A stretch of 64,000 bases of DNA from Kofleriaceae bacterium (GTDB lineage Bacteria; Myxococcota_A; Polyangia; Haliangiales; Haliangiaceae). Shown in pieces: positions 40,630 through 46,320 of the stretch. The translations under genes and the position numbers were made by a program. The notes beneath the pieces are model-generated. The model made no database searches and was not told where the DNA came from. It saw only the letters and a program-made list of their open reading frames with translations. Position 1 is the first letter of the stretch; the number at the start of each line of letters is the position of its first letter. Location of the stretch: positions 1-64,000 of the forward strand of contig JAGPCY010000005.1 in assembly GCA_018057825.1 (NCBI GenBank), in the 5' to 3' direction.

Positions 40630-41331
40630 TCAGCGATGGCCGCGGCCGTGCCCGCGACCGCGGCCCCGACCGCCGTCGCGGCCGTCGCGATCGTCGTCGC
40701 GCGCGTCGAGGCCCCAGACCTCGACCTGGGCGCGACCGCCGCCCGGCAGGTTGCCGTAGCGGAAGTGGACCTTGTCGATCTTCCGGGCGCCGCCGGGCAG
40801 ATCGATCACCCGGCTCTGCGTGCCCGGGCCAAAGACGTGGCGCAGGTTGGGCGAGAACGTCGTGCCATCGCCAAACTCGAACACCACGTCGAACACCTCG
40901 AGGGCCGAGTGCTCGACGACGATGGCGACCGCGCGGTAGCGGTCGCGCTTGCCGCGGACCTTGATGTGATCGCGATCGACCCGGCCCTCGACCCAGCGCT
41001 CGCCGAGCTTGTCCCAGTCGCTCGAGCGGTCGAACGCGCGATCCGAGCGATCATCGGCGCGCTCGCCGGGGCGGACCGGCGGCGCGGGCTGGACGACCGG
41101 CGGCGGCGGCCCGACAACCGGAGGCGGCGGCGGCGGTTGCGGCGGCGGGGCTGGCTGGATCACCGGCGGCGGTGGCGGCGGCCCGGGCTGCGGCGGCGGC
41201 TGCGGCTGCGGCTGCGGCTGTGGTCCCGCGGCGACGTAGACCGGTCCGGGGGCCGGATCGGGAGTGGCGGCGATGCACGCCGAGGTGGCGATCGCGGCGA
41301 GGCCGGCGACGAGGGAGGCGAGGGTGCGCAT
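40630..41331 (-). CDS. Envelope protein: signal peptide, proline/glutamine linker, DUF2541-like beta domain
   Basis: A 233-residue exported protein. Signal peptide with MRTLASLVAGLAAIATSAC (possible lipoprotein cysteine at 19), then a roughly 60-residue Pro/Gln/Gly-rich linker (about 30-90) suited to crossing peptidoglycan, then a beta-sandwich-like domain (about 100-205) with WDKLGERWVEGRVDRDHIKV and RVIDLPGGARKI, a pattern I associate with DUF2541-type proteins, and finally an Arg/Gly/Asp tail ([18 protein letters not shown]). Function unknown. It is preceded by a -10 box. Confidence 0.75.
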   Translation of the reverse strand: MRTLASLVAGLAAIATSACIAATPDPAPGPVYVAAGPQPQPQPQPPPQPGPPPPPPVIQPAPPPQPPPPPPVVGPPPPVVQPAPPVRPGERADDRSDRAFDRSSDWDKLGERWVEGRVDRDHIKVRGKRDRYRAVAIVVEHSALEVFDVVFEFGDGTTFSPNLRHVFGPGTQSRVIDLPGGARKIDKVHFRYGNLPGGGRAQVEVWGLDARDDDRDGRDGGRGRGRGHGRGHR

Positions 41332-41411: not shown

Positions 41412-41735
41412 ATGAGGACCGGCATCGCCCGCACCACCGATGATCTCTTGATCGAGGTCGAGTTCGAGGATCACGTCGCCGAGCGCTGCTCCTCGGCCGA
41501 CTCGGCCAAGAAGATCGGCGTGGCCTACGCCGGCCTCCAGGGCGTGCTCGAGAAGATCGCGCAGCCGTTCATCGCCACGTATCGCACGCTGTCGACCAAC
41601 GTCGAGCTGGCCGAGGCCGAGATCAAGCTCGGCCTCGCGTTCGAGGCCGAGGGCGGCATCATCCTGGTCAAGTCCAAGGGCAGCGCCAACCTCGAGGTCA
41701 CGTTGAAGCTGCGTCCGGTCAAGCCGCAGTCCTAG
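41412..41735 (+). CDS. Trypsin-co-occurring domain 1 (Trypco1, CU044_2847-type) protein
   Basis: A 107-residue, single-domain soluble protein: a beta hairpin (TDDLLIEVEFED), a helical middle (GLQGVLEKIAQPFIATYRTL) and a C-terminal strand pair (ELAEAEIKLGLAFEAEGGI, then LEVTLKLRPV). This is the layout of the small domain named for its co-occurrence with trypsin-like proteases in bacterial conflict systems. The protease gene begins immediately after its stop codon with no gap, which strongly supports the assignment. The likely role is a regulator or sensor that holds or recruits the protease. The ATG at 41412 has no evident ribosome binding site. Confidence 0.8.
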   Translation: MRTGIARTTDDLLIEVEFEDHVAERCSSADSAKKIGVAYAGLQGVLEKIAQPFIATYRTLSTNVELAEAEIKLGLAFEAEGGIILVKSKGSANLEVTLKLRPVKPQS

Positions 41736-43217
41736 ATGACCGACTGGACTCGCCACGTCGTCCTCTTGTCGAGCGCCAACGGCAAGGCGCACGGCTCCGG
41801 CTTCGTCGTCCGCCGGGCCGGCGCGGTCGCCCACGTCGTGACCTGCGCCCACGTGGTCGCCGATCTCGGCGACGGCCTCGAGGCCAACGGTCGCCCGGCC
41901 AAGGTGCTGTGGGACGGCACCAAGAGCGGCATCGACCTCGCGGTGATCGCCGCCGAGGGGCTGACCGAGGAGCCGCTCACGCTCAGCCGGCGCGCTGCGG
42001 TCGGCGACGCGGTGGTCGCGGTCGGCTTCACCCAGGTCGATCGCGGCCGGCGCGCGACCGCCCGTGCCGCGACGATCCGCGAGGCCACCCAGCTCACCTA
42101 CGACCCCGCCGCGGTCGTCAAGAAGCACGCCGGCTGGCTCTTGGCGCTCGACGGCGAGGCGGTCACCGACGGGTTCTCGGGTGGGCCTGTGGTCGCGGCC
42201 GACACCGGCCTGGTGATCGGCGTGCTCGGGCTGCGCGGCGCCGACACCGCCGACGCGATCGCGATCGGCAACCTGGCGGCCTGGGCCGACGCGCCGCCGG
42301 CGGTGAGCGGCGTCGGCGAGCAGCTCGAGGCGTGGCGGCGGAGCGACCGCTGGGTCCGCCTCGCGGCCCTGGCGCTGGCGGCGCTCCTGGTCGCGACCGT
42401 GGGCGCGTTGATCGTGGTGATGGCCGGCCGCGACGAGCGGCCGATCACGATCGAGACGCCGCGGATCTGGAACGGCTCGGTCTTCGCCAGCACCGGCGCG
42501 CCGCCCGAGCTGGTGTGGGTGCCGGCGGTCGGCGGGTGGCAGCTCTCGCTGAACCGCTTCCGCGCCGGCGATCGGCTCTGTCTCGAGCCGCGCGGTCTGG
42601 CCGCGGTGGCCGCCCCCGACGTCCTCAACCTGGGCGGGGCGCTGCGCGGGCTCCTGGTCAAGCACGCCGCCGCCGGTGGGCCCCTGGCGCAGCTCCGGCG
42701 CTCGGTACCGGCGCCGGTCTTGACCGACGCCAACCGATTTCGGTTCGGCTGGGTCGGGCCCGAGGGTGGACCCGGCGCCGACCCGGTGCTCGACGGCTGT
42801 CGGCTGCGCCCCGACGTCGACTGGGGGGCGCTCCTCGGGACCGAGCTGACCGACCTCGGCTACAGCGATCTCCCGCTGCGCGACCCGGTGGCGGTCCTGG
42901 CCGAGGATCGCCGCGCGGTCGACGACCTCCGGGTCCTCGGGGCGCGGCGCGAGTGGGTGATGACCGCCGACGGCCACCTGGCCTTCGTGGTCAACGACGC
43001 GGTCGTGACCGATCGCTTCGCGCCGGCGCGGCCGCTGTGCACCGACGCCACCCGGGCGCGGGCCGCCGCCGAGCGAGCCCTGGCCGCCGATCTCGCGCAC
43101 AACCTGGCGGTCCAGCCCCCGGCCCTGGCCGCCTACGGCGACAACGCCGGCGGCTTCATGGTCGCGATCCGTCGCGGCGCGTGCCCGGCGGCGTCGACGA
43201 TGCGCACCCGGCCGTAG
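41736..43217 (+). CDS. Trypsin-like serine protease with one TM helix and unknown C-terminal domain
   Basis: 493 residues. An N-terminal S1-type domain (about 1-185) with an intact triad: His39 in TCAHVV, Asp67 in GIDLAV, Ser148 in GFSGGPVV. One TM helix (about 207-230), then a roughly 260-residue C-terminal domain with a few cysteines that I do not recognise. There is no signal peptide, so by position the protease domain is predicted cytoplasmic and the C-terminal domain outside, the reverse of DegP-like proteases. With the adjacent Trypco1 gene this suggests that an envelope sensor triggers cytoplasmic proteolysis. The start ATG directly follows the upstream TAG. Confidence 0.85.
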   Translation: MTDWTRHVVLLSSANGKAHGSGFVVRRAGAVAHVVTCAHVVADLGDGLEANGRPAKVLWDGTKSGIDLAVIAAEGLTEEPLTLSRRAAVGDAVVAVGFTQVDRGRRATARAATIREATQLTYDPAAVVKKHAGWLLALDGEAVTDGFSGGPVVAADTGLVIGVLGLRGADTADAIAIGNLAAWADAPPAVSGVGEQLEAWRRSDRWVRLAALALAALLVATVGALIVVMAGRDERPITIETPRIWNGSVFASTGAPPELVWVPAVGGWQLSLNRFRAGDRLCLEPRGLAAVAAPDVLNLGGALRGLLVKHAAAGGPLAQLRRSVPAPVLTDANRFRFGWVGPEGGPGADPVLDGCRLRPDVDWGALLGTELTDLGYSDLPLRDPVAVLAEDRRAVDDLRVLGARREWVMTADGHLAFVVNDAVVTDRFAPARPLCTDATRARAAAERALAADLAHNLAVQPPALAAYGDNAGGFMVAIRRGACPAASTMRTRP

Positions 43218-43233: not shown

Positions 43234-43707
43234 TCACCAGGGCAGCGACGGCAGGCCGCCGGCGATCGAGCCCTGATGGCGGAGATCGACGGTGAGGTCG
43301 CCGAGCTGGGTCGAGAAGTGCAGCCGCACCGCGAGCTGGTAGTCGCGCGCCCCGCGGGCCAGCGCCGCGGCCGCCGCGGCGGCGTTGGCCAGGTCGATGC
43401 GCAGCGCGGTAGTCACCGGCGCGCTGCCCATGGCCGGGATCGTGGTCTGGGCGGCGACGCGGCCGCTGACCGCGGCGGCGCCGGCGATCGCCAGCTCCCA
43501 GTCGATGCCGGTGAGCGGCAGGCCGAAGCTGTTGGGGTTGGAGACGTCGAGAGCCAGCTCGCCCTCGAGGGCGGTCAGCGACGCGATCGAGATCGAGGCG
43601 CCGCGGACCACCGCGGTCGGCTTCTCGACCGGTCGGGTCAAGAAGCAGGCGGACAGGGGCGCGAGGAGGACGAGGAGGAAGGCGAGTCGACGCAGCGGCG
43701 CGGGCAT
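43234..43707 (-). CDS. LEA14-like (WHy domain) lipoprotein
   Basis: A 157-residue lipoprotein: signal sequence with lipobox LSAC (lipidated Cys21), then one LEA type 2/WHy beta-sandwich domain with LELDVSNPNSFGLPLTGIDWEL-like strands (the NPN motif at about 57-59) and a second strand set ending LGDLTVDLRHQGSI. Such bacterial proteins sit in the envelope and are linked to desiccation or stress tolerance in other organisms. It is convergent with the trypsin gene, with a 16-bp gap. Confidence 0.85.
   Translation of the reverse strand: MPAPLRRLAFLLVLLAPLSACFLTRPVEKPTAVVRGASISIASLTALEGELALDVSNPNSFGLPLTGIDWELAIAGAAAVSGRVAAQTTIPAMGSAPVTTALRIDLANAAAAAAALARGARDYQLAVRLHFSTQLGDLTVDLRHQGSIAGGLPSLPW

Positions 43708-46118: not shown

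Positions 46119-46320
<202 letters not shown>

Follow-up and report, generated by a model that had tools for sequence, protein, structure and literature searches.

A Trypco1 gene paired with a trypsin-like protease that carries a membrane helix and a predicted LecA-type lectin fold in a Kofleriaceae bacterium

A Trypco1 gene and the gene of a putative membrane protease form a two-gene unit at 41412–43217 in the genome of a Kofleriaceae bacterium (assembly GCA_018057825.1); the window analyzed here is the first 64,000 nucleotides of contig JAGPCY010000005.1, forward strand. Judged from sequence, the pair appears to be a rare variant of the Trypco-trypsin conflict module, in which the new part is a membrane helix followed by a domain of predicted LecA fold. 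There is about an even chance that the pair works as a membrane-anchored receptor-protease unit, gated by the lectin domain and acting with Trypco1. The anatomy and topology of this unit are well supported, while its triggering and output are what we infer. The features of the locus are as follows.

41412–41735, + strand: Trypco1 gene, 107 aa, the small partner (PF19493 and NF041216)
41736–43217, + strand: membrane protease gene, 493 aa (open frame with Trypsin_2; homologue in a sister species)
41736–42317, + strand: trypsin-like protease domain, predicted cytoplasmic, approximately residues 1–194 (Trypsin_2; triad His39/Asp67/Ser148)
42351–42428, + strand: single membrane-spanning helix, approximately residues 206–231 (the only hydropathy peak)
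42441–43214, + strand: predicted periplasmic domain with a divergent LecA/PA-IL lectin fold and two insertions (profiles and model)
43234–43707, − strand: LEA-2 lipoprotein-like gene outside the unit, convergent, forming the downstream boundary (PF03168, 49.1 bits)
40630–41331, − strand: proline-rich lipoprotein-like gene outside the unit, divergent, forming the upstream boundary (ORF list)

The coordinates, strand, and frame of both genes given in a preliminary description held when the reading frames were checked. That description had called the genes fused back-to-back; there is no gap between them, but because the TAG stop codon of Trypco1 directly precedes the ATG of the protease gene, they are adjacent genes rather than a fusion. 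Chance reading frames are excluded because both genes have gene-like G+C contents at the three codon positions (0.61/0.41/0.95 for Trypco1 and 0.78/0.56/0.95 for the protease gene) and are conserved as a pair. The gene before the pair runs the opposite way and the gene after it is convergent, which sets the pair apart as a two-gene unit of its own. The product of the upstream gene (40630–41331) matched no Pfam family; by eye, its N-terminus resembles that of the sister-species gene at the corresponding place, beyond one extra gene. Farther neighbors encode a transglycosylase (SLT), a His-phosphatase, RuvC, RuvA, RuvB, and an FtsX-type permease, and a check of the neighboring genes revealed no MoxR, vWA, VMAP, STAND, or MBL-nuclease partner adjoining the pair. 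The statement that no NTPase, VWA, or MoxR gene is adjacent thus stands for MoxR and VWA, with the housekeeping gene ruvB, which starts approximately 1.8 kb downstream, as the one NTPase exception. Of the suggestion that the pair is a stripped two-component version of a larger system, the self-contained two-gene character without MoxR, vWA, VMAP, or STAND in cis is borne out, but there is no evidence of loss from a larger system. A sigma-70 promoter scan at the pair found none and is uninformative at the G+C of this DNA. Just past ruvB, the window contains approximately 31 tandem copies of the hexamer GAGACC (46131–46318).

The small partner matches the Trypco1 family (PF19493, 41.2 bits, E 2.5e-10, cut-off 24.6, profile positions 9–95 of 98) and NCBIfam NF041216 (CU044_2847, 42.3 bits, cut-off 23). 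The 493-aa protein is, by its sequence, an S1-type trypsin-like serine protease, since its Trypsin_2 match (PF13365, residues 20–163, full model covered) lies above the cut-off (48.6 bits against 27.6) and its catalytic triad is intact, as had been noted: His39 lies in TCAHV, Asp67 in IDLAV, and Ser148 in GFSGGP, and these motifs are identical in the sister species. In sequence, the protease domain resembles defense-system trypsins modeled in PADLOC (RT-Protease_XI, 3.9e-11; LmuA, 8.6e-6), and it has weak sequence similarity to DegS/HtrA. Neither protein matched a caspase, cyclase, or EACC1 family in Pfam searches to E 10. The absence of a signal peptide and the presence of one membrane helix were likewise confirmed: the N-terminus lacks a hydrophobic stretch, and a single strongly hydrophobic stretch spans approximately residues 206–231, where hydropathy rises to 2.7 over 19 residues, the sole peak in both homologues. 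A MASE1 match in this region (E 0.048, below cut-off) was rejected as a hydrophobic-segment match.

The domain that follows the helix had been described as unrecognized; it indeed matched no Pfam family (hmmscan), but profiles and a structural model make it assignable to the LecA/PA-IL fold. The pattern GD..C.EP.G, GPEG, GALL, VND, DNxGxF in this domain recalls LecA-type lectins. A generic LecA-like consensus of our own, searched in 144 genomes of the class, yielded 19 domains, 12 of which were aligned to build a profile; the motifs GPEG…GALL…VND…DNxGxF align with these myxococcal lectin-like domains. Against the PDB, this profile matches PllA (3.7e-10) and PA-IL/LecA (9.8e-7), and among the ORFs of the neighborhood it finds the window protein in three collinear pieces (E 0.005). 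Aligned to the lectin-like profile with hhalign, the two-row C-terminal alignment scores 23.2 (P 0.006); none of 600 full column shuffles scored as high (maximum 21.5), but when local composition was preserved, 2 of 300 shuffles did so, which makes the assignment a modest one on sequence evidence. The two-row profile alone gave no matches in a PDB sequence search. AlphaFold given only the two true homologues produced an unusable model (pLDDT 38.7) for which a fold search is meaningless. With eight lectin-like rows added, the core reaches a pLDDT of 85–96 and superimposes on LecA with Z 14.3 and an rmsd of 2.4 Å over 115 of 120 residues, against Z of approximately 7 for unrelated rows, in a model that depends on the alignment supplied. 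Taken together, profiles and model indicate that the C-terminal domain very probably adopts a divergent form of the LecA/PA-IL-type lectin fold, interrupted by two large insertions; confidence is held short of certainty because the added lectin-like rows could bias the model.

In this alignment-dependent model, the domain shares the fold of the LecA/PA-IL/PllA lectins (PDB 1l7l and 5odu, Z 12–14), and the ND…DN motif is kept, as are the N-D and D-N positions at the ends of the loop. The domain differs from LecA in its low structural-alignment identity (approximately 24%), its two insertions, its four cysteines, its membrane tether, and the absence of a PF07828 match. One insertion, approximately 47 residues long, sits in the loop bounded by the VND and DN motifs, which in LecA flank the calcium and sugar site. 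PF07828 (PA-IL proper) does not match the window protein in hmmscan to E 10, and a strict search at E 1e-3 found none in the genome, with the controls silent as well. More generally, the Pfam PA-IL model barely sees LecA-like relatives (3 of 12 at E below 1). Exported Myxococcota proteins with a LecA-like domain (L066, L067, L068, L075, L077, L082, and L083) make up a widespread, unrecognized lectin-fold family; a C2 domain preceding the LecA-like domain is Pfam-confirmed only in L066.

The C-terminal domain is probably periplasmic and the protease cytoplasmic, because no export signal precedes the protease, the sampled relatives of the C-terminal domain are all exported or anchored, and four cysteines are kept. 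In each of the 12 relatives, the domain is preceded by a signal peptide, a lipobox, or a membrane helix (nine by script, three by eye). The four cysteines of the C-terminal domain (C282, C355, C435, and C483) are kept in the sister species and the two protease domains share only Cys37, a pattern that fits disulfides outside and none inside. The helix is flanked by positive charges on both sides, and the positive-inside rule does not decide. The layout proposed at first, with the protease before and a sensor-like domain after the single helix, is upheld, and profiles and model give the outer domain a ligand-binding (lectin) fold. Its description as an inverted topology, which rests on predicted sides, is fair relative to two comparisons. 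DegS/HtrA shares the one-helix anchor and the S1-type protease, but the DegS protease is periplasmic with a PDZ sensor, whereas the protease here is predicted to lie inside and no PDZ match accompanies it. In another myxobacterium, a single protein (L128:7314-8741; G136 contig C18) comprises a membrane helix, a trypsin-like protease, and a LecA-like domain; because the protease follows the helix in this protein, it shares a side of the membrane with the lectin domain, presumably the outer one.

Full-length relatives were sought in 95 near relatives, in the class (317 genomes), and in the phylum (377 genomes drawn), overlapping sets that amount to approximately 600 Myxococcota genomes; the class and phylum scans evaluated only a small number of candidates in each genome and may have missed distant full-length relatives. 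One other full-length copy was found, in a sister species of the same genus (G003, a public MAG named Myxococcales bacterium; contig JAEUJY010000162.1). There the gene order is kept and the stop and start codons overlap as GTGA. Homologues that always lack Trypco1 had been named beforehand as contradicting a functional pair, and this sole homologue keeps Trypco1. The protease gene products are 64% identical over their full length and the catalytic triad is kept; identity is 85% for Trypco1, 85% for the protease domain, and approximately 51% for the C-terminal domain. The corresponding dN/dS values, for two members only and thus statistically thin, are approximately 0.37, 0.35, and 0.80. A constant enzyme pair with a variable outer domain is the pattern that exposure of this domain to changing ligands would be expected to produce. 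The LEA-2 gene and ruvCAB adjoin the pair in the sister species too, where an extra DUF4344 metallopeptidase gene lies upstream. Other members of the genus have the LEA-2 gene but different neighbors, and a clean empty site is not readable; in another species of the genus, Trypco1 occurs unaccompanied by a protease partner. The viral contigs, phages, and plasmids searched contained no relatives of the protease, and relatives of the window Trypco1 and of two other Trypco1 proteins were absent from the plasmids searched. In the sister species, contig C79 encodes a trypsin-like domain, 35% identical to that of the window, fused to a UvrD-like helicase (L038:2775-4805); this fusion lies in a lower-G+C stretch with protein-kinase-like and restriction-like genes that looks like a defense island.

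Of the 377 Myxococcota genomes sampled, 37 carry Trypco1. Besides the two pairs described here, a trypsin-like gene lies near Trypco1 in one case, on the far side of another gene, in our own HMM and motif scans, which miss very divergent trypsins such as the one on contig C5 of the window genome. Many Myxococcota Trypco1 genes thus have no detectable trypsin neighbor, some of them in recurring neighborhoods. Since this holds for most myxococcal Trypco1 genes, Trypco1 may have a wider role, with uses that, on this genomic distribution, probably go beyond trypsins. The contig C5 locus (G000, L057:2295-13348) encodes Trypco2, the divergent trypsin, a MoxR-like AAA ATPase, and a 1788-aa metallophosphatase/NB-ARC/TPR protein, with genes for a ThsB-like TIR protein, a caspase, and a TIR protein on the opposite strand.

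Trypco1 and Trypco2 were named as neighbors of conflict-system trypsins (Kaur et al., 2020, PMC7159879). The pairing of Trypco with trypsin is common to the window pair and the MoxR-vWA (VMAP) ternary systems (PMC7159879), but the pair has no MoxR, vWA, VMAP-C, or conflict-type NTPase in cis, and its protease is linked, by way of a membrane helix, to a domain of predicted lectin fold rather than to VMAP-C. It falls outside these systems: its neighbors are SLT, His-phosphatase, LEA-2, ruvCAB, and FtsX genes, and VMAP-C was not found in the genome. The EACC1-caspase System 4 (PMC7159879) consists of a small 5′ gene and a 3′ gene with an N-terminal peptidase and a variable C-terminal domain, in part with membrane helices and sometimes with an outside ligand-binding (PBP) domain. 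This two-gene membrane layout is alike, but no domain is in common: Trypco1 takes the place of EACC1, trypsin that of the caspase, and the LecA fold that of PBP, and the small partner EACC1 spans the membrane whereas the membrane protein here is not the small partner. With Trypco1 as its 5′ gene and a trypsin as its 3′ gene, the pair is not a member of that system. Trypsin-MBL nuclease pairs in Hachiman, AVAST, Lamassu, and DRT (PMC12799240) likewise have an upstream partner and a sensor fusion that begins with a trypsin-like domain, but the partner here is Trypco1 rather than an MBL nuclease and the sensor lies across the membrane; membership fails because Trypco1 is the upstream gene, and the gene before it (40630–41331) has no Pfam match. 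The open-licence PMC literature searched yielded no paper on a Trypco1-trypsin protein that has both a membrane helix and a LecA-fold domain.

If the pair is a lectin-gated receptor-protease unit, its periplasmic domain would bind a glycan or glycan-like ligand from the cell's own damaged envelope or from phage, predator, prey, or competitor material. Binding might cluster or reorient the protein or shift the helix, which would activate the cytoplasmic protease. Trypco1 would be a co-made regulator or substrate adaptor that keeps the protease off or presents its target, and the protease would cut a cytoplasmic target encoded elsewhere in the genome, leading to a stress, dormancy, or self-killing response. 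The unit would thus work like conflict-system protease modules, but with the trigger outside the membrane. The neighborhood of the pair contains no effector or substrate gene, which counts against this reading. Lectin-fold sensors are used in conflict systems, with the sensor inside the cell (PMC8195603), and trypsin-like domains can be switched on by oligomerization of a fused sensor, again inside the cell (PMC12799240). A narrower version can be advanced only tentatively: as a pattern-recognition receptor, the periplasmic lectin would sense foreign or damaged glycans and switch on the Trypco1-restrained protease, an NTP-free immune-like or self-killing trigger of a new layout, built on one membrane protein. 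The link to immunity would rest, by analogy, on the relatives of the Trypco-trypsin module.

The main rival is a sensor of envelope quality, in which the lectin-fold domain would monitor periplasmic glycans or lipoproteins of the cell itself and the protease would trim a regulator, DegS-like logic turned inside out. In both species the pair has a stable chromosomal place beside ruvCAB and the LEA-2 lipoprotein gene, which accords with such a sensor, as does the absence of mobile-element or defense-island genes adjoining the pair. Exported proteins ending in LecA-like domains are, moreover, common in the class, which indicates that the fold serves ordinary envelope work. However, the pair occurs in only two species of the genus and so is not a core envelope function, and in other settings Trypco1 is associated with conflict-system proteases (PMC7159879), which leaves this reading a serious but unlikely one.

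Less probable still is that the C-terminal domain is an anchor or effector rather than a sensor, for example one that tethers the protease to the cell wall or is set free by self-cleavage. Domains of the LecA type may do no more than bind, and in the L128 protein the lectin-like domain and the protease share one side of the membrane, the arrangement expected of a targeting module; here, however, a helix parts the C-terminal domain from the protease, and that domain evolves much faster than the enzyme. It is quite improbable that the pair is a trans-acting subunit feeding the Trypco2-trypsin-MoxR-NB-ARC locus with its TIR and caspase genes, or another system elsewhere in the genome: although the contig C5 locus belongs to the same genome, it has its own trypsin and Trypco2 and lies on a different contig, Trypco1 and Trypco2 are described as mutually exclusive neighbors (PMC7159879), and a search of the genome for the VMAP-C domain gave no match.

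Since 2020, Trypco1 has been known only through its gene neighbors. In this unit it stands alone with a protease, free of NTPase machinery, so that an assay with just two genes could test its role. Should the lectin domain prove to gate the protease from across the membrane, the pair would be a simple bacterial parallel to lectin immune receptors, and Trypco-trypsin modules would be able to respond to signals outside the cell.
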